NCBI GenBank assembly: GCA_902767365.1
Contig: CACXGX010000032.1
Span: 1-44,611, forward strand
Direction of reading: 5' to 3'
DNA: 44,611 bases
Source: an uncultured Erysipelotrichaceae bacterium
Lineage (GTDB): Bacteria > Bacillota_I > Bacilli_A > RF39 > UBA660
Part shown: positions 20,858-40,491 of the stretch, piece by piece
Position numbering within the stretch: the first letter of the stretch is position 1
Layout of the letters: each line of letters begins with the position of its first letter
Made by a program: the position numbers and the translations under genes
The notes under the pieces: model-generated
Told to the model about the DNA's origin: nothing
The model's database searches: none
The model's input: the letters and a program-made list of their open reading frames with translations, nothing else

Positions 20858-23800
20858 ATGAATAAAAAAGGTTTTACTTTAATTGAAATTTTAACTGTAG
20901 TAATAATATTAGGAATAATAATGATTATTGCTATACCATCAGTTTCCAAATATATATTGGATTCTAGAGATTCAGCATATGTTACATCAATAGAAAAATA
21001 CATAGAAGCAGCAAGAAATGAAATAACCGATTTTGAGTATATTGTTAATAAAACAAATACGACATATTATATTCCTACAAGATGTTTAAAAGTAGAAAAT
21101 GGAGAAGAATCTCCATATGGAAGAATGGAAGAAAGTTATGTAGTAGTAAACTATGATGAACAAGGCTTTCATGATTACTACTATATAGGACGTGATGATA
21201 CAAATCATGGAATGACTTTAACAGAAAGTTCAAATATAGATACAAATCATTTGAGAAATGATGTGGAAACTATTCAAACTGAAGCTGTAAATGGAAGAGC
21301 AAGAGTAGTAGTATATAAAGATGATTGTAGTAGAGAAACAGAATCAACAAATGATCCAAGCCTAGCAACTTGTGGAGAAGTAATAGGAGAATCAACAGAG
21401 TGGACAGGTGAAAATAGGACAATTACAGTAAAATGTCTTGGTAACTGTAAGCAACCAGAATATACAGAAACATTTAAAGTAACAAAGAAAGTAGGAGTAA
21501 TCCAAATCGCAGATAGAAATAATAAAAGACAAAATTGTAGAGTAAATGTATATGTAGATAAGACGAAACCAGAAGCAGTAATAAGAGCAACTAAAAAAGA
21601 TAGTGGGTTTCAAGTTGCAAGTAAACAATGGAGTAATGAAGGATTAAACTTCTTATTTGTTAATAAAAAAATAGCACCAAGTGGAACAACAATATATTAT
21701 TGTCAAGATACAACAAATACATGTGAACCTAATATTCAAGTTAGACCTACTGATACTATTACAACATATAATAATATAGAAGGAATATATTATATAAGAT
21801 ATAAAGCAGAAAGTAATACAGGTTTAACTAGTGGAATAGAAAGTTACGAAGCAAGAGTAGACTGGACAGAACCAACATGTACATTTGATTTAACAGGAAT
21901 AAAAAGAACAGATGAAACAACAACTTATGTGTCTAATGTAGGAGTGACTCTTAACTCTAGTGATAATTTAAGTGGCATATATCAATATGGAATAAATGAT
22001 GATATGAATTTGCATAATTTAACTCATACAGAAGATGGTAATTCTATAACATATAATGGAAGGGTTAAAGATAATGCAGGAAATGAAAAAACTTGTAATA
22101 TTACATTTAAAAAGAATAGTAATATTATATTAACTTTAAATGTTAATGATGGAAATGCATGGACTAATGAAACATGTACAGGAACAAATACAAGTTTATT
22201 ATTATCAACATGTAAAATAACAGTAAGATATAATGAAACATTTGGAACAATACCGACACCAACTCGTAAAGGATATGATTTTGTTGGATGGTATATAGGA
22301 ACAACAAAAATACTTGATAATGCAACAGTAACATTGACAAAAAATGAAACATTAACAGCTAATTGGAAAGCACAAAAATACATAGTAACATTAGACAATA
22401 ACGGAGCTACAACACAAGGAAGTACTACTACATATGTTACATTTGATACTAAAAACTTTGAACCAATTACTTTACCAAGAAAAACTTATACTATTAAATT
22501 TGATTTAAATGGTTCAGGAGCAACAGCATCTTCCACAAATGATATAGTATTTAATTATACTATTGGTGGATGGTATGTTAAAGATTCAACAAGCAATGGA
22601 GATCAAATAGCAGATAATAATTCAACTCCACAATTAATTCAAGGGGTTGATGGATATACAGATGTTGAAGGAAAATGGAAAAAAGACTCTGGAGAGGCTT
22701 TAATAGCTTCTTGGGAAAGTACGGATATTAGTCTTCCAACAATAACAAAGACAGAATATAATTGTGGTTGGTATGATGCTAGATCTGATGGAAATAAAAT
22801 AGCAGGGTCAGGTGGAGAATATACACCAAAAAATAATATAACATTATATGCTCAATGTAAGAATAATTGTTCTGAATTTGAAGCAGGACCATGCGGAAGT
22901 GTATGTTCTGAAGATAGGACAGGTACAAGAGTAACTAGAAAATTCTATAATGATTTATATACAGGAGACTTGAAAAAAGGAGAATGCTTTATAGATGGTA
23001 CTAACTGCTATAAATTATCAGGAGACCATGAATATAAATGTAATAATGGTGCTTGGCCACTAGGATACGGTAATGAACATTATGGTGATTATAATGAACA
23101 CTACTACTTCAAAAATAATAGTCCTGATATTTATACAAGATATTCTGGATCAAATACATATTGCTACTACGCAGCATATACAAATTATGGAAATAAACCA
23201 GCTAAAGCATGTACTGTTTTTGATGTAACACTTAATAAGCAAGGTGGAACTGGTGGAACATCAACAATATATGAAAAATATAATGAAGGATGGTATTCTA
23301 ATTCAGCAGGAACAACAGCAATTTCAAAGGTCACTCTACCATCAAAAGCAGGTTATAAGTTTGACGGATATTATACACAAACAGGAACTCAAATAATTTC
23401 AAATACTGGAACTATTAATGGTAATACAAACAAGACATTCTTATCAAGTGGTACATTATATGCTAAATGGACAGCAGTTAATTTAAACTTCAGTGGTAAA
23501 ACAATAACAAAAATATATAGTACAACTCAACAAACAGAATCATTTACTGCAGCATCAAACGGAACAGGAAGTTATACATATTCTGAAAAAAGTGAAACAA
23601 ATTCAGCAGGAGTAGCAACAAACTTCATAACTGTATCAGGAACAACTATAACTATTGCAGCGGGAACAACTGCAGGAACTTATACATATGTGGTAACAGC
23701 AAAAGATAATAATACATTGGCAACAAAAGACGCTACTTTTACAATTACAATAGGTAAAGCAACTCCTACATTATTGGCAACTGAATATAGTAAAAACTTG

Positions 23801-24328
23801 ACAATAAATGTAACTGATACTTTTGGAGTAGTTCCTTCTGTAAGTGGAACTCTTACATGGAGTTCTGAAAACACTTCTATAGTAACAATTGCTAAAAATC
23901 AACAGCATACTAATAATTCAATTCAAGAAAATGGACAATTTGTATTAAACGTTAAAGGGAAAGGACAAGGAAATTCAGCTGTAAATGTTACCCTTAAACC
24001 ATCAGATACAACAAACTATAATAACGCTTCAGTTAGAGTTACTATCTCTTCATGTATTTCATGGGCGGCTGGAAAATGTTGGAAAGATGCAAATGGATGG
24101 ACACCTGGGGCACATCCAAGTCAAGGTTGGGATTGTTTTAGCAGTCAAGAATTATATACTGGACACTGTAAAGCATATTCTAAATACACTGACTCTACAG
24201 CTCCAACAGATCATAATGGTGAACCATATTTCCCAGATGTCATGGCAGGAAAGGGTGAATGCATAGATAAATGTGATCAGCCAAGTGTGACAGTGTGGGC
24301 TTGTCCATGTTATAAGCTCGAAGGATAA
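20858..24328 (+). CDS. Giant prepilin-leader surface protein with InlB-type repeats
   Basis: The start at 20858 is behind TAGGAGAGTGTCTT. Residues 1-29 are a type IV prepilin leader, MNKKG/FTLIEILTVVIILG, with the cleavage Gly, Phe+1 and Glu+5 all present, followed by the usual pilin helix to about residue 55. Instead of ending at 150-200 residues the protein continues to 1156. It contains Ig-like beta units (VGVTLNSSDNLSGIYQYGIN), several Listeria-Bacteroides/InlB B-type repeats (RKGYDFVGWYIGTTKI, then ETLTANWKA; KAGYKFDGYY, then GTLYAKWTA), and a Cys- and Trp-rich end (AAGKCWKDANGW ... CIDKCDQPSV ... ACPCYKLEG). It is probably assembled or anchored by pilus machinery and exposed as an adhesin. 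No pilus assembly gene lies in the window. Confidence 0.88.
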   Translation: MNKKGFTLIEILTVVIILGIIMIIAIPSVSKYILDSRDSAYVTSIEKYIEAARNEITDFEYIVNKTNTTYYIPTRCLKVENGEESPYGRMEESYVVVNYDEQGFHDYYYIGRDDTNHGMTLTESSNIDTNHLRNDVETIQTEAVNGRARVVVYKDDCSRETESTNDPSLATCGEVIGESTEWTGENRTITVKCLGNCKQPEYTETFKVTKKVGVIQIADRNNKRQNCRVNVYVDKTKPEAVIRATKKDSGFQVASKQWSNEGLNFLFVNKKIAPSGTTIYYCQDTTNTCEPNIQVRPTDTITTYNNIEGIYYIRYKAESNTGLTSGIESYEARVDWTEPTCTFDLTGIKRTDETTTYVSNVGVTLNSSDNLSGIYQYGINDDMNLHNLTHTEDGNSITYNGRVKDNAGNEKTCNITFKKNSNIILTLNVNDGNAWTNETCTGTNTSLLLSTCKITVRYNETFGTIPTPTRKGYDFVGWYIGTTKILDNATVTLTKNETLTANWKAQKYIVTLDNNGATTQGSTTTYVTFDTKNFEPITLPRKTYTIKFDLNGSGATASSTNDIVFNYTIGGWYVKDSTSNGDQIADNNSTPQLIQGVDGYTDVEGKWKKDSGEALIASWESTDISLPTITKTEYNCGWYDARSDGNKIAGSGGEYTPKNNITLYAQCKNNCSEFEAGPCGSVCSEDRTGTRVTRKFYNDLYTGDLKKGECFIDGTNCYKLSGDHEYKCNNGAWPLGYGNEHYGDYNEHYYFKNNSPDIYTRYSGSNTYCYYAAYTNYGNKPAKACTVFDVTLNKQGGTGGTSTIYEKYNEGWYSNSAGTTAISKVTLPSKAGYKFDGYYTQTGTQIISNTGTINGNTNKTFLSSGTLYAKWTAVNLNFSGKTITKIYSTTQQTESFTAASNGTGSYTYSEKSETNSAGVATNFITVSGTTITIAAGTTAGTYTYVVTAKDNNTLATKDATFTITIGKATPTLLATEYSKNLTINVTDTFGVVPSVSGTLTWSSENTSIVTIAKNQQHTNNSIQENGQFVLNVKGKGQGNSAVNVTLKPSDTTNYNNASVRVTISSCISWAAGKCWKDANGWTPGAHPSQGWDCFSSQELYTGHCKAYSKYTDSTAPTDHNGEPYFPDVMAGKGECIDKCDQPSVTVWACPCYKLEG

Positions 24329-24444: not shown

Positions 24445-24479
24445 AAACTTAGTATTTCAAAATAATACTAAGTTTTTTT
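24445..24479 (+). terminator. Terminator after the giant surface protein
   Basis: AAACTTAGTATT (24445-24456) pairs with AATACTAAGTTT (24463-24474) and seven T residues follow. The 115 bp before it are non-coding with no other signal. Confidence 0.85.
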
Positions 24480-24498: not shown

Positions 24499-24527
24499 TT
24501 TACCTTTTTCTTTTATTTATGTATAAT
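24499..24527 (+). promoter_or_regulatory. Promoter of the Cys-repeat surface protein
   Basis: TTTACC (24499-24504), a 17-nt spacer and TATAAT (24522-24527). Its position rules out the ATG at 24519 as a start and supports ATG 24552. Confidence 0.65.
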
Positions 24528-24551: not shown

Positions 24552-26738
24552 ATGAAAATATTTAAATCTATTTGGTTTTACATTACATTATCAATAATTA
24601 TAGTAATTTGTGCTATAGGAATAGGTATTTCATATAATTCAAATAATACTATAAAAGTTAATATTAATAGTGACAGCAACTCACTTGGTTGCTTAAGTGT
24701 AAATATTACGCCTGTAGAAGGAGCAAGTGAATATTCATTTAATGGTGGAAAAACTTGGCAAAAAAGTAATTATGGAGTTTTTTATACTAATGGAAAACAC
24801 GAAATATTAGCAAGAGATAGTTATGGAAAAACAATTGCATCTAAAATGTATAATGTTAATACCATTGAAAGTGGATATCCAACTATAAAATTAGATTTTG
24901 ATAAAAAAATAAGTAATACAGACAAAGAATCATTATTAGAAGATGTCCATGCAAGTAATGGAGTATTTGATATATCTAAGAAATTAAGAGCAAATGTTAT
25001 AAGCGAAACAGATGAATATGCTATTGTTAAATATTCTGTAACTAGTGACAATAGAGCAGAAACATCTTTAATAGCAAAATTAGAAAAAAATAAAAAAGAT
25101 AAAACAATAAATGATGATATATCTTTTCAAATGAATAATTACTCATGTACAGAAGGAAAAAATATTAAAACAAATATTAAGTATGAGGACGTGAAAATAA
25201 AATCATATTATACTACAGATAACAAAATAGCTACAGTAGAACAAATAAATGAAACATGTGAAAAATGTATTGCAATTAATATAAAATGTTTAAAGACTGG
25301 AACTACATCTTTAATAGCAATTAATGAAAATAACAAAAAAGTTGAATCAAACATAAAAGTTGAATCAAATGTTGGTGCAATATCATTTAATAAAAGTGAA
25401 TATACATGTACTGAAGGAGATAAATTATATGCTACTATTACAGCAACAAATCCTGTTAATACAATAGTTAAAGCATATTCTAGTAGTAATACATCTATCG
25501 CATCTATAGAGAAAAATCCAAATGTTGCAAAATGTCCTAACTGTTTGGCAATTATCATTAATTGTAATAAAGTTGGAACTACAACTTTAAAGACTACTTC
25601 CTCAACTGGAGCAGTAGGAACAGCAATTGTAAAAGTAAATAGCAAAAAAATTGGAACTATAAATTATACTCAAAGCACGTATAAATGTACTGAAGGTGAA
25701 ACAATTGATGCAACAATTAAAACAGATAATGAAAATACAAGAGTTGTATCATATTCAAGCAATAATACTTCTATTGCAACAATTGCAAAACATCCAACAT
25801 TAACAGCAAAATGTCCAAACTGTGTTATTACTCAAATAAAATGTTTAAAGAGTGGAACTGCAATGTTATCAGCAAGTTCATCAACTGGAGCAAAAACAAC
25901 TTCAACATTAAATGTCGTTAAAAAAGAAACTCCAAGTGTAGGAACAATATCATTTGACAGTTCAAGTTACACATGTACTGAAGGAGAATCAAAAAGAGTT
26001 GTAATAACTTCAACTTCAGAAATTGTTAGTTACCAAAGTAGTAATGGAAATGTAGCAATAATAGCAAAAGATGCAAATGTTACTCCAAAATGTCCAAATT
26101 GTTATGCAGCACTTATTACTTGTAAAAAGAAAGGTACAGCAACTCTAACTGTTCAATCAAAAACAGGAGCTAAAAAAACAACAAATGTAACTGTTAAAGA
26201 AGTACCAGAAACATTATACTTTGACCATACAACATACACATGTACAGAAGGAACAACAATTGGAGCAACAATAACAAGTAGTGCAGGAATAAAAAGTTAT
26301 ACAACAAGTAATTCAGCTATTGCAACAATAGCAAAAGATCCAAATTTACAACCAAGATGCATTAACTGCACTGCAGCTATAATCACATGTAAAAATAAGG
26401 GTACTGTTTCAGTAGGTGTTGTATCAAATAAAGGAACAACAAAAACAGCAAGCGTAACTGTTAACGAATCTAATGAGGTTTTACGTTTTGACAATACAAG
26501 TTACACATGTACAGAAGGAAAAAGCCTTGTAGTAACCATAACAAGTACTAAAGGAGTAGCAAGTTACACAACAAGTAACTCAGCAATTGCTACAATAGAA
26601 AAACACCCAAATTTACAACCAAGATGTCTAAATTGTATAGCAGGACTTATTACTTGTAAAAAACAAGGTAGTGTAACAGTAGGTATTGTATCTAATACAG
26701 GAAAAATGTCTTCTGTTCCAGTTACAGTAACAAAGTAA
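24552..26738 (+). CDS. Membrane-anchored protein with six Cys4 Ig-like (Big_2-type) repeats
   Basis: ATG 24552 follows AGAAAGAGTGG; the upstream in-frame ATG lies in the promoter. The 728-residue protein has one N-terminal membrane helix (about 2-27), a ~160-residue beta domain with SFNGGKTWQKS, then six repeats of 87-96 residues. Each repeat reads Phe-x(5-6)-Tyr-x-Cys-Thr-Glu-Gly, then SxNxxIATI, then Cys-x-x-Cys, then Ile-x-Cys about eight residues on, ending in a hydrophobic strand. The spacing of S/T and V strands resembles bacterial Big_2 Ig-like domains. Four invariant cysteines per domain (24 in all) suggest two disulfides each, or metal sites at the CPNC/CINC pairs. It probably stands on the cell surface next to the pilin-like protein. 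Confidence 0.8.
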   Translation: MKIFKSIWFYITLSIIIVICAIGIGISYNSNNTIKVNINSDSNSLGCLSVNITPVEGASEYSFNGGKTWQKSNYGVFYTNGKHEILARDSYGKTIASKMYNVNTIESGYPTIKLDFDKKISNTDKESLLEDVHASNGVFDISKKLRANVISETDEYAIVKYSVTSDNRAETSLIAKLEKNKKDKTINDDISFQMNNYSCTEGKNIKTNIKYEDVKIKSYYTTDNKIATVEQINETCEKCIAINIKCLKTGTTSLIAINENNKKVESNIKVESNVGAISFNKSEYTCTEGDKLYATITATNPVNTIVKAYSSSNTSIASIEKNPNVAKCPNCLAIIINCNKVGTTTLKTTSSTGAVGTAIVKVNSKKIGTINYTQSTYKCTEGETIDATIKTDNENTRVVSYSSNNTSIATIAKHPTLTAKCPNCVITQIKCLKSGTAMLSASSSTGAKTTSTLNVVKKETPSVGTISFDSSSYTCTEGESKRVVITSTSEIVSYQSSNGNVAIIAKDANVTPKCPNCYAALITCKKKGTATLTVQSKTGAKKTTNVTVKEVPETLYFDHTTYTCTEGTTIGATITSSAGIKSYTTSNSAIATIAKDPNLQPRCINCTAAIITCKNKGTVSVGVVSNKGTTKTASVTVNESNEVLRFDNTSYTCTEGKSLVVTITSTKGVASYTTSNSAIATIEKHPNLQPRCLNCIAGLITCKKQGSVTVGIVSNTGKMSSVPVTVTK
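25110..26735 (+). repeat. Six tandem protein-coding repeats, 261-288 bp each
   Basis: The marker TGTACxGAAGG (Cys-Thr-Glu-Gly) recurs near 25145, 25407, 25686, 25974, 26240 and 26507. The last two units are the most alike in DNA (shared strings such as ACAACAAGTAA and TTACAACCAAGATG), which suggests recent duplication. Confidence 0.85.
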
Positions 26739-26769: not shown

Positions 26770-26792
26770 AGAGAGAGAAATCTCTCTTTTTC
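26770..26792 (+). terminator. Terminator after the Cys-repeat protein
   Basis: AGAGAGA (26772-26778) pairs with TCTCTCT (26781-26787), followed by TTTTCT. Confidence 0.7.
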
Positions 26793-36448: not shown

Positions 36449-36485
36449 AAAAAGAGCTTATTCATTTATTTGAATAAGCCTTTTA
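36449..36485. terminator. Bidirectional terminator between convergent genes
   Basis: GCTTATTCA (36456-36464) pairs with TGAATAAGC (36471-36479), with A-rich and T-rich flanks that serve both strands. It overlaps the stop of the minus-strand gene. Confidence 0.8.
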
Positions 36486-38316
36486 TTTTGTCCCATAAAC
36501 TTTCACTTTTTTCATCTATTTTTTCTATTTTTACATTAGTATTTGTATTTGCTTTTATACTATCAATTACCATAATTATTTTTGTTGAACCTTTAACTCC
36601 TTCAGCTCTTTCATCAAAAGTTTGATAATTATTACTTAATTCTCCAAGTGCTTTAACTTTTCCTTCTAAAGATTTTAAATCACCATTTACTAAATTAGTT
36701 ATCTTATTAATTCCTTGTGAATTAAATTGAAGTATTCCATTATCTAATGCATATATTCCATCTTTTAAACTTTTTGTTCCACTGTTTAATAAAGACATAT
36801 TAGAATTAATTTCATTTAAACCACTAGTTAATTCATTTAGTCCATCATAAAGAGGTTTTAAAGAATCAATAGTTTTATTCTTTGCTGTTTCTTTAGCACT
36901 ATTAGCAACTTGTTTTGCTACATTTTCTGCAACTTGACTAGAAACATTAACAGAAACCGTTTCAGCAGTTTGTTCTGCAGTTTGTAATGCTACTTGCATA
37001 GCAGTTGAAATAGCAGTATTTCTTGCTGTTTCTTCCATTAAAGTTATCATTTCTTTTAACATAGTATATTGAGTAATGTGTGTTTGATTACTTGCACATA
37101 CTTCGATATATTGTTCATCTATTTCATTTTGAGAACATATACCTATTAAATTTGGAATTCCAGCTTGTTCTAATTGTTCTTTCTTATTTTTTAATTCATT
37201 ATATGTATTGTTTTGTTGTAATGCATTAACAGCTTGATTTCCAATTAAATTCTTATATTCATTTGTGAAAGTAGCTAAAACTTTATCTCTTGCTCCATTA
37301 ATAGCAACATCTTTTGTACTGTTAACAGCATTTTCTTTAATATAATTTAATGTATTATTATCTATTGCAGGACTATTATCATTTTTTAAACTTTCTAATG
37401 AATTTCCTACTAAATAGGTAATTTTTTTACTTCCTAAATAAGCACTTTCTATTCCATTAGTTAATTTATTTATTCCATCTTTTAATTTATTAGCCCCTTC
37501 TAATAATTGACCACTTCCATTTTTTAACTTTTTACTAGAAGATGATAAAAGATTAATTGAATCATAAACTTTATCAATATCGTTTAACATTTTTAAGTCT
37601 TCAGCTTCAACAATTTTTGGAGTAGCAACTGCATAGATTGAATTTAATTCAAATTTTTCAGTTTCATAAGTTATTTCGATAGTATCTAATCCTTTTAACT
37701 TTTCTATATTTAAACTTTCATATAAACCTGGGATAGATAAGCCTACAACAACACTATTTGTACCATTTGTAACAACTTTACCATTTATTACTTTAATATT
37801 TTTATTATCTATATTAGGAATAATAGTAGTAGTTGCAATCACAAAAGGAGTATATAAAGTTTCATTTTTACCATTTACTTTAACTAAATGTTTATCATTA
37901 TTTTTATACTTTAAAATAAGTTTAACATTTCCTTTTTTACCAATCATATCTTTAACATCAGACTCTTTACCATTTAAATAATAACTAACATCAAGTTCTA
38001 TTGGTAATTTATCTTTTGTTTGTCCTTGATAATAAATATCTTTTCCTTTTGTTTTCCATATTAACTTACTTTCTTCTTGAACAAATTCTTCATCCCCATT
38101 TATATTCTTTATTTTTATAAGTTTTGTTTTATCTTTAGTTTCACCTTCATTAACACCTTCTAAGTGTTCTGATATTACTACATTTTTTACTTGACCAGAA
38201 TTATTAAGTTTTGCATAAATTGTTTCATCTTTAACAAGAGCCCATATAGGTACAACATCTAATAGTAATCCAAATATAACTCCTATATACATTATCTTAC
38301 AAATTGTTTTTTTCAT
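36466..38316 (-). CDS. YhgE/Pip-like heptad-repeat secreted protein, MMPL partner
   Basis: The start at 38316 immediately follows the stop of the MMPL gene (TAAATG). The 616-residue protein has a signal sequence at 1-27 (ICKIMYIGVIFGLLLDVVPI), a ~200-residue beta domain, then long helical regions. Two of these carry the L-x-x-G heptads of the YhgE/Pip group: KLKNGSGQLLEGANKLKDGI before residue 290, and NELTSGLNEINSNMSLLNSG near 500. An Ala/Thr/Glu-rich coiled coil (EQTAETVSVNVSSQVAENVA) lies between. Proteins with these repeats commonly pair with MMPL/RND transporters and act on the outer face. No C-terminal membrane anchor is present. Confidence 0.8.
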   Translation of the reverse strand: MKKTICKIMYIGVIFGLLLDVVPIWALVKDETIYAKLNNSGQVKNVVISEHLEGVNEGETKDKTKLIKIKNINGDEEFVQEESKLIWKTKGKDIYYQGQTKDKLPIELDVSYYLNGKESDVKDMIGKKGNVKLILKYKNNDKHLVKVNGKNETLYTPFVIATTTIIPNIDNKNIKVINGKVVTNGTNSVVVGLSIPGLYESLNIEKLKGLDTIEITYETEKFELNSIYAVATPKIVEAEDLKMLNDIDKVYDSINLLSSSSKKLKNGSGQLLEGANKLKDGINKLTNGIESAYLGSKKITYLVGNSLESLKNDNSPAIDNNTLNYIKENAVNSTKDVAINGARDKVLATFTNEYKNLIGNQAVNALQQNNTYNELKNKKEQLEQAGIPNLIGICSQNEIDEQYIEVCASNQTHITQYTMLKEMITLMEETARNTAISTAMQVALQTAEQTAETVSVNVSSQVAENVAKQVANSAKETAKNKTIDSLKPLYDGLNELTSGLNEINSNMSLLNSGTKSLKDGIYALDNGILQFNSQGINKITNLVNGDLKSLEGKVKALGELSNNYQTFDERAEGVKGSTKIIMVIDSIKANTNTNVKIEKIDEKSESLWDKIKGLFK

Positions 38317-40386
38317 TTAAATCATTCCTTTCTTAAATCCAAATGTTGTTTTTGTAATCAATTTATCAAAAATAATTAATATACTTGGTAGAACAAATAT
38401 TACTACTAACATACTAATTATTGCCCCACGTGCCATAAGAGTACATAAAGAATTAATAATATCTATTGAGGAAATAATACTAACTCCAATAGTTGCTGCA
38501 AAAAAGCACATTCCACTTACAATTATTGATGAAATAGATGAATCAAGAGCATTTTCAATAGCTTTCATTTTATCTTTCTTCTTTTTTCTTTCTTCTAAGT
38601 ATTTAGTTGTCATTAATATTGCATAATCTATTGTTGCCCCTAATTGAATTGTTCCTATTACTATTGATGCTATAAAAGGTATTTTAGTACCCATAAAATA
38701 AGGAATACCTAAGTTTATAAAAATAGCAAATTCAATTGTTATTACTAAAAGAACAGGTAAAGAAATAGATTTTAAAGTTAATAACATAATAATAAATATT
38801 ACAAAAATAGAAGTATAATTTACATTAATAAAATCAGTATTTGTAACATTAACTAAGTCTTTAGTTAATGGACCTTCACCAGCAACTATTGCTTTATCAT
38901 CATATTTATCAACTATTTCATTCATTTTTTCTATTTGACTATTTAATTCATCAGTTGCAATATCATATTCTGAATTAACAATTATCATTGTATATTTATC
39001 TGATCTATACATTTCTTTTAATTCATCAGGAATAATTAAATCAGATATTCCTAATGAAGATAACATAGTAGGGGATAGAACCTGATTAATTCCATTTAAT
39101 TTTTTAATTTCTTCAACCATCTGATTAACTTTATAATTTGGAGTATCATTTGATACCAAAATCATTGATTGAGATGACATATTATAATCATTTTTTAATT
39201 TTTTAGTAGCAATGCTATATCCATAACTATCTGGAATAGAAGAATCTAATTTATAATATACTTCTGTTTTTCTTTGTGCTAAGAAGAATGGTACTAAAAG
39301 AATAATAAATATTACAAATATAGATATATAATGTTTTGTTACAAAATTCTTTGTATGAGTAAATTTTGGTAATAAATTTTTATGTTTTGTTTTCTCAATT
39401 TGTTTATCAAAAACAAGAAGTAGAGAAGGAAATAAAATAATAACACTTAGTAATCCAAATAAAACTCCTTTTGCCATTACTACACCAATATCTACTCCTA
39501 ATGTAAGTTGCATAGTACATAGTGCTAAAAAGCCTGCAATTGTTGTAAGAGAACTTCCAAGTACTGAAGAAATAGTTTCTTTTATAGCCTCAATCATTGC
39601 TTTATCATTATCTTTTTCATGTTTTTTATGATATTCATATTTATGATATAAGAATATAGAAAAATCAGTTGTAACACCCAGTTGTAATACAGCTGCAATA
39701 GCCTTAGTAATGTAACAAATGTTTCCAAGTAAAATATTACTTCCCATATTGTAAATAATAGCGATTCCAATATTTAATAAAAGCAAAAAAGGTACTAAAT
39801 ATGAATCAAGAGAAATAATTAAAACGATAATACAACATATAACAGCAATAATAATATAGTAAAGCATTTGACTATTAAATATTATCTCTGTATCTAAAAC
39901 CATTGCACTCATTCCACCGATATAGACAGAATCATCTACAATTTTTCTCATTGATTTAACTGCCTCAAGTGTTTTTTCATCACTTGTTGAATTTTCAAAA
40001 GTTACAAGAATTAATTCACTATCATTTTTAGCAACTTTATTTTGTATTTCATTAGGTAATATAGATAAAGGTATAATTGTTCCAGTTATATCACTAGCAC
40101 TAATAACTTTATTTACACCATCTATTTTTCTAAATTCATCTTCTAATAATAGTAAATTTTTACTATCCATATTTTCTACAATAGTAATAGAAAAAGCTCC
40201 CATATGAAAATCATCAGTTAATATTTTTTCTCCTTTAAGAGTTTCTATATCACTAGGTAGATAAACTAAAATATCATAATTAATTTTTGTATTAAAATAT
40301 CCAATTATAGATGGTATTAATAATAAAAAGGATATGATAACAATAAATAATTTGTTTTTACAAATAAATCTTCCTAACTTTTCCAT
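38317..40386 (-). CDS. MMPL/RND-family transporter
   Basis: ATG 40386 follows AGAAAGGAAGATATT; the longer in-frame ORF enters the promoter and operator region. The 689-residue protein has the two-fold RND layout. It has TM1 at about 12-30, an extracytoplasmic domain of ~140 residues, five more helices, and then a second copy of the same order beginning near 350. The helix pairs include LQLGVTTDFSIFLYHKYEYH and IQLGATIDYAILMTTKYLEE, with the conserved Gly-x-x-x-Asp-Tyr/Phe element that carries proton-relay residues. It probably exports lipids or hydrophobic compounds together with the YhgE-like partner, under the divergent TetR regulator. Confidence 0.88.
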   Translation of the reverse strand: MEKLGRFICKNKLFIVIISFLLLIPSIIGYFNTKINYDILVYLPSDIETLKGEKILTDDFHMGAFSITIVENMDSKNLLLLEDEFRKIDGVNKVISASDITGTIIPLSILPNEIQNKVAKNDSELILVTFENSTSDEKTLEAVKSMRKIVDDSVYIGGMSAMVLDTEIIFNSQMLYYIIIAVICCIIVLIISLDSYLVPFLLLLNIGIAIIYNMGSNILLGNICYITKAIAAVLQLGVTTDFSIFLYHKYEYHKKHEKDNDKAMIEAIKETISSVLGSSLTTIAGFLALCTMQLTLGVDIGVVMAKGVLFGLLSVIILFPSLLLVFDKQIEKTKHKNLLPKFTHTKNFVTKHYISIFVIFIILLVPFFLAQRKTEVYYKLDSSIPDSYGYSIATKKLKNDYNMSSQSMILVSNDTPNYKVNQMVEEIKKLNGINQVLSPTMLSSLGISDLIIPDELKEMYRSDKYTMIIVNSEYDIATDELNSQIEKMNEIVDKYDDKAIVAGEGPLTKDLVNVTNTDFINVNYTSIFVIFIIMLLTLKSISLPVLLVITIEFAIFINLGIPYFMGTKIPFIASIVIGTIQLGATIDYAILMTTKYLEERKKKKDKMKAIENALDSSISSIIVSGMCFFAATIGVSIISSIDIINSLCTLMARGAIISMLVVIFVLPSILIIFDKLITKTTFGFKKGMI

Positions 40387-40415
40387 AATATCTTCCTTTC
40401 TGTATCCAAAAAGAT

Positions 40416-40491
40416 ATCTTACTCCACAAATGACCAAAAGTCAATATTTTAATTACAATTAATTGACTTTTAGTCAAAACACTTATAAAAT
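40416..40491. promoter_or_regulatory. Divergent promoters with two TetR-type operators
   Basis: The perfect palindrome TTGACT-TTT-AGTCAA (40463-40477) forms the -35 of the tetR promoter (17-nt spacer, TAAAAT 40486-40491). A near copy, TGACCAAAAGTCAA (40431-40444), read on the minus strand, supplies TTGACT for the MMPL promoter (17-nt spacer, TAAGAT 40421-40416). One repressor could thus shut both promoters at equivalent positions. Confidence 0.85.

Follow-up and report, generated by a model that had tools for sequence, protein, structure and literature searches.

A membrane-anchored surface protein with six four-cysteine variants of the Big_2 fold, each probably stapled by two disulfides, in an uncultured lineage of Bacilli

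We analyzed a 44,611-nucleotide stretch of contig CACXGX010000032.1 from an uncultured, low-GC, gut-type Erysipelotrichaceae bacterium (hereafter, the window), in which a gene on the plus strand (24552..26738) encodes a 728-aa surface protein with six tandem Ig-like repeats of four cysteines each (hereafter, Cys4 repeats). The reading frame is also open from 24519, but the in-frame ATG at that position overlaps the −10 box of a promoter-like site (TTTACC-17-TATAAT, 24499..24527, +; a consensus match only), and the ATG at 24552, which is preceded by AGAAAGAGTGG, is for this reason the likelier start as judged from the sequence. The gene stands alone between two terminator-like hairpins. One of these, read by eye from the sequence as AAACTTAGTATT...AATACTAAGTTTTTTT with an A+T-rich stem (24445..24479, +), separates it from an upstream prepilin-like gene, and the other lies 3' of the gene (26770..26789, +).

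As read from its translation, the product has one N-terminal hydrophobic helix, no lipobox, and no LPXTG motif. The helix, IWFYITLSIIIVICAIGIGI (24570..24629, +), is a signal-anchor or transmembrane helix according to the translation and a hydrophobicity scan. It is followed by an N-terminal domain (YSFNGGKTW..., 24648..24875, +) that is also present in other large proteins exported by the family, and by a second domain (24876..25112, +) that is probably Ig-like: this stretch aligns with a copy in a genome of the same family (G233) that matches Bact_surface_Ig-like (PF16403), the window copy itself having no Pfam match. The YSFNGGKTW domain is found in large exported proteins in many genera of the family, and its match in Pfam is a weak one to BNR. 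The six Cys4 repeats, 87–96 aa long, then succeed one another on the plus strand at 25113..25373 (repeat 1), 25374..25652 (repeat 2), 25653..25940 (repeat 3), 25941..26207 (repeat 4), 26208..26474 (repeat 5), and 26475..26735 (repeat 6). A sortase anchor (C-terminal LPXTG plus hydrophobic tail) is absent, the protein ending with ...PVTVTK right after repeat 6.

The open reading frame, its translation, and the cysteine count confirm what an earlier note on this DNA had read at 24552-26738, namely six tandem Cys4 repeats with 24 cysteines on a membrane-anchored protein. Of the protein's 26 cysteines, 24 fall in the repeats, four in each, and the order that the note described (Y-x-C-T-E-G, then C-x-x-C, then I-x-C) is seen in every repeat of the window. 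At the genome's cysteine content of 1.1%, a length of 541 aa should hold about six. In the sample used for these statistics (stretches of the same genome amounting to 423 kb of 1.6 Mb, including the window), mean cysteine content was 1.10% in cytosolic proteins and 0.59% in exported ectodomains (Cys-rich ones excluded), against 3.7% in the Cys4 ectodomain; because this value is far above both averages, the Cys-rich repeats are real and not an effect of composition. No bias toward even numbers of cysteines was found among the sampled exported proteins of the genome (24 even, 23 odd), a set that includes an apparently cytosolic flavoprotein (window 6272). Two details in the note's description required revision. 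What it called an invariant CxNC pair is a CxxC in all six repeats but a CxNC in five, repeat 1 having CEKC, and the pair in relatives is mostly C-x-[N/D/G]-C and sometimes CX4C. Recent duplication of the last two repeats was overstated: no two repeats resemble each other more than 5 and 6 do, yet these share 62% amino acid and 72% nucleotide identity.

The upstream neighbor (20858-24328), which the note had described as ending in a Cys-rich domain, encodes a 1156-aa type IV prepilin-like protein with an N_methyl motif, List_Bact_rpt (Flg_new) repeats, and indeed 30 cysteines. It is far bigger than usual pilins. The same genome holds a second Cys-rich prepilin (L152:8845-9963) with 18 cysteines in a 352-aa ectodomain, and the first 150 residues of the two are 41% identical. 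The genome thus has more than one Cys-rich prepilin, and it is possible that these share an oxidative route with the Cys4 protein. Elsewhere in the window, a gene for an MMPL/RND-type exporter adjoins one for a 616-aa exported protein with no Pfam family above cut-off (38317-40437 and 36466-38316, respectively, −).

The Ig-like nature of the repeats, proposed from the sequence alone, is borne out by a high-confidence model, by fold matches, and by profile homology to Big_2. The AlphaFold model of repeat 4 alone, for which 35 repeats of eight genomes were aligned, is an all-beta Big_2-type Ig sandwich with a mean pLDDT of 95.8. Its best fold matches were SbsC, Big_2-CBM56 (7quz/7r3t; Z 10.9/10.7, rmsd 1.8 over 80 residues), and LigA (8gyr; Z 10.5), at Z 10.5–12 overall. 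Sequence search of solved structures gave nothing convincing (MRT4, intimin, IgA Fc receptor, E 0.09–0.7), so that structural relatives had to be found by fold. Nearest by Foldseek and VIA-align are the Ig-like domains of the S-layer protein SbsC (4uid, 4uj7, 5ftx), which also form cell-surface arrays; they are ~20% identical to the Cys4 repeat, and the likeness is one of fold. When repeats 5 and 6 were modelled together, both folds were kept (pLDDT 94) and their mutual orientation was uncertain (pTM 0.58), which suggests that neighboring repeats may be arranged like beads on a string. Matches to Tfb2, NUP210 Ig, and GH115_C, which were below cut-off or off-topic, were discarded.

Profile comparison (hhalign) aligned the Cys4 repeat with Cys-free Big_2 over 78 columns (prob 97.5, E 7.5e-12) and placed the CxxC segment, ~12 residues long, as an insertion in the D-E turn of Big_2, where it displaces the tight nGk turn. 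In the Big_2 frame, the first cysteine (C1) precedes the A'B turn and the last (C4) precedes the EF turn, with the CxxC pair (C2 and C3) inserted in the DE loop. The A2 profile also recovers Cys-free Big_2 in relatives. By profile and model, then, the repeat is a homologous Cys4 variant of the Big_2 fold, though the whole window protein scores 16.7 bits against Pfam Big_2 (PF02368), below the gathering score of 22.8. With Big_2 domains (LigA/LigB, intimin, Big_2-CBM56) it shares the fold, the length, the turn glycines (vGe and kaG), and tandem use at the surface; it differs from them in its four conserved cysteines and the CxxC insertion in the DE turn. Lig domains are without disulfide cysteines (PMC7821625).

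Cys4 repeats were found in nine MAG genomes, and counting them in these relatives gave 1–10 copies in each. The carriers include the window genome and three more of its genus (G002, G004, and G006) as well as three of the same family (G218, G233, and G855) and two MAG contigs, CAMJBC010000003 and JAFRIS010000039. No other carrier turned up when ~390 genomes were sampled at the class level and as many at the phylum level; the few further class-level matches that were read (G479, G674, and G258) were rejected as Cys-free or Cys-poor Big_2-like domains in which the four-cysteine pattern is absent. Among viral contigs, 40 pattern matches included no relatives, and tblastn against phages and plasmids returned no Cys4 repeat. 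Of the loci retrieved with a narrow alignment, two were truly Cys4 and three were of the Cys-free Big_2 type.

The proteins that carry the repeats are built in several ways. One from an 'uncultured Tenericutes' (CAMJBC010000003) has ten Cys4-type repeats, one of them with C1 and C4 only, and matches no Pfam family whatever and no NCBIfam name; immediately 3' of this ten-repeat relative lies a gene for a small exported protein, LysM-like by eye (L063:5378-5905, +). Another, from a member of the Bacilli in goat jejunum (JAFRIS010000039), has three SLH cell-wall domains followed by three Cys4 repeats. In G004 (L005:1513-3363, −), a Cys-free Big_2-like segment and a GH5-like enzyme precede a single C-terminal Cys4 repeat with CX4C, and one protein of G002 combines Cys4 copies with a good Cys-free Big_2 domain (2.8e-14). 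No conserved gene neighborhood was seen in L063 or L064. Because architecture and copy number vary, the Cys4 unit is a mobile module of surface proteins.

In the model of repeat 4, C13 lies in or at the end of strand A' (residues 10–14) and C52 in the DE loop; strand E (55–62) begins with C55 and ends with C62. From Ig topology we take C13 and C62 to be at the same pole, beside the AB and EF turns, which points to a contact between C1 and C4; the C1/C4 and C2/C3 pairs are at opposite poles of the domain. One metal ion shared by all four cysteines is excluded by the eight-residue strand, >20 Å long, that separates C55 from C62. The earlier note, which had weighed disulfides against a metal or redox function, counted cysteines lying far apart in a predicted structure against its reading; the opposite poles rule out a single metal site and leave two disulfides standing.

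The pattern of conservation argues for disulfides as well. All four cysteines are present in 33 of 35 aligned repeats and C1 and C4 only in the other two, with no single losses. Of 37 full repeats (the 35 plus two of G855), none lacks C1 or C4, and three lack both C2 and C3, a coincidence of three C2 and three C3 losses with a probability of ~1e-4 if losses were independent (a guide only, as the repeats are related). C1 and C4 are strictly conserved across genera in copies that are 30–50% identical; loss of the cysteines in homologues had been named beforehand as grounds for abandoning the idea, and they have been retained. The spacing of C2 and C3 is two or four residues. Repeat 5 of G002 has an additional CX4C pair upstream, and one of G855's two repeats has C1 and C4 only, the other an extra pair. 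These two diverged repeats of G855 lie in one protein (L164), one of them with an inserted CDC...CADC loop. Since the cysteines go missing in pairs and never singly, they should form two independent disulfides, and since single Cys4 copies exist, as at the C-terminus of the GH5 enzyme of G004, pairing within a domain must be possible. The strand positions of the cysteines and the paired loss of C2 and C3 together favor disulfides over metal, and the most likely arrangement, by sequence and model, is C1–C4 and C2–C3 as staples in a surface stalk.

Two other roles for the cysteines were weighed against this arrangement. We think it unlikely that C1–C4 alone is structural and that the CxxC in the DE loop acts as a redox-active or ligand-reactive site, serving thiol-disulfide exchange with proteins of the host or of neighbors, or cross-linking of stalks. 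That C2/C3 can go while C1/C4 stays would fit separate roles of the two pairs, and the CxxC is in a loop and probably exposed, but most copies have N, D, or G before C3, as is typical of a closed CxxC loop, and the motif, whose spacing varies to CX4C, is unlike the CPxC or CGxC at a helix start in thioredoxins. Quite unlikely, in our estimation, is a set of metal-binding repeats, with Zn or Fe held either within a domain or between the C1/C4 pole of one domain and the CxxC pole of the next. A CxxC followed by a strand recalls zinc-knuckle spacing, and the 2Fe-2S family Fer2_4 (PF13510) comes close to its cut-off (22.6 vs 22.8 bits); this match was rejected, C55 and C62 being at opposite ends of strand E with no clustered site, and the same eight-residue separation of >20 Å speaks against any site within the domain. 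For a metal at the interface, the poles of neighbors do face each other in a head-to-tail Ig chain, but a lone Cys4 repeat ends the GH5 enzyme of G004, a Cys4 repeat adjoins a Cys-free Big_2 domain in G002, repeat 1 of L063 is followed by a repeat without CxxC, and the geometry between domains is uncertain (pTM 0.58).

Disulfide staples call for oxidation outside the cell, and obligate anaerobes tend to keep cysteine out of exported proteins (PMC12453122), which counts against such staples. The oxidase families searched were VKOR, CcdA/DsbD, and Thioredoxin_4. Neither VKOR (PF07884) nor CcdA/DsbD was found in the nine carriers, among which the window genome is 74% complete, and this likewise counts against the staples. 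Thioredoxin_4 (PF13462) was above cut-off in none of eight carriers in a search of 14 genomes (these eight and six others of the genus, with G855 outside it); one sub-threshold match came from a non-carrier, G005. It is nonetheless very improbable that the cysteines are functionless free thiols, accumulated by drift and kept reduced in an anaerobic niche: the lineage is low-GC and presumably anaerobic and the three families were not found, but C1 and C4 are strictly conserved across genera at 30–50% identity and loss is only pairwise.

The check for a thiol oxidase thus failed for VKOR and for Thioredoxin_4 above cut-off, and it did turn up an exported PedC-like thioredoxin lipoprotein with a CPYC motif on contig 116 of the window's own genome (L119:96-509, −). 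Its best NCBIfam match is PedC/BrcD (TIGR01295; 4.2e-7), at 30 vs 120 bits and so below the equivalog cut-off. ORFs with a lipobox or anchor and a CxxC thioredoxin fold were read in G000 (CPYC), G001, G005, G006, G007, G009, G011, G218, G233, and G475, in a reading that gave none for G003 and no clear case for G002, G004, G474, and G855; G000, G006, G218, G233, and G475 are Cys4 carriers. Relatives of the CPYC lipoprotein vary the motif (CSHC, CSFC, CSAC, CHYC). In an NCBIfam scan of five of the thioredoxin-fold proteins, PedC/BrcD came first in four and second, after thioredoxin, in that of G475, all far under cut-off. Like PedC/BrcD and SdbA, which are extracytoplasmic thiol-disulfide oxidoreductases, the CPYC lipoprotein is exported and has a thioredoxin fold and a CxxC; PedC/BrcD is a bacteriocin disulfide helper. 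Pediocin, with two disulfides, is more potent when PedC is co-produced (PMC4919988), and some DsbA-like oxidases, SdbA for example, are known to have no partner (PMC12453122). We regard the CPYC lipoprotein as a candidate oxidase of the repeats. The candidates occur in carriers and in relatives without Cys4 repeats alike, with no genomic association between the two, and the link accordingly stays a proposal. A fuller account is somewhat doubtful as a whole: an unnamed Cys4 subfamily of Big_2, scattered in one uncultured low-GC Bacilli family, would fold oxidatively in a presumably anaerobic niche through an exported PedC-like thioredoxin and no VKOR/DsbB partner, the CxxC of the DE loop being a second, separable staple or a redox site.

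We propose, as the probable explanation, a membrane-anchored Ig stalk with two disulfide staples in each Cys4 domain. The surface stalk would consist of an anchor helix, an N-terminal part of one or two domains, and six Cys4 copies of the Big_2 fold. In each copy, C1, where strand A' ends, would be bonded to C4, where strand E ends, and so join the two sheets at the pole that carries the AB and EF turns; at the other pole, C2–C3 (C-x-[N/D/G]-C) would form a tight disulfide loop within the DE loop. Such staples could give a long, exposed stalk resistance to proteases and force, a role equivalent to that of the isopeptide or ester bonds of other Gram-positive adhesins. Oxidation, presumably extracellular, would probably have the help of an exported protein with a thioredoxin fold, for which the CPYC lipoprotein in the same genome may serve as an example. 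A role as stalk, adhesin, or scaffold is suggested by analogy with the stalks of Gram-positive adhesins (the Mobiluncus giant adhesin, FimP, Spy0128, Cpe0147), which also consist of tandem Ig-like domains and to which the comparison is one of working principle. In the Mobiluncus type, each tandem Ig-like domain is covalently locked (PMC10619420). Those stalks use isopeptide or ester bonds, to which some domains add a disulfide, whereas the Cys4 stalk would use two putative disulfides, and it is without their sortase motif.

The Big_2 domain is among the commonest building blocks of bacterial surfaces; its Ig fold is known, and what is new here is the Cys4 version. In the literature consulted, no paper connects the Big_2 domain with both cysteine and CXXC; as evidence of novelty this is weak. 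Annotation overlooks such proteins, as the ten-repeat relative, nameless in both Pfam and NCBIfam, illustrates. Disulfides may be a further route to tough surface stalks, besides isopeptide and ester bonds, and a lineage with doubly stapled Big_2 domains would be a natural test case for the making of exported disulfides in organisms where the textbook pathway was not found.
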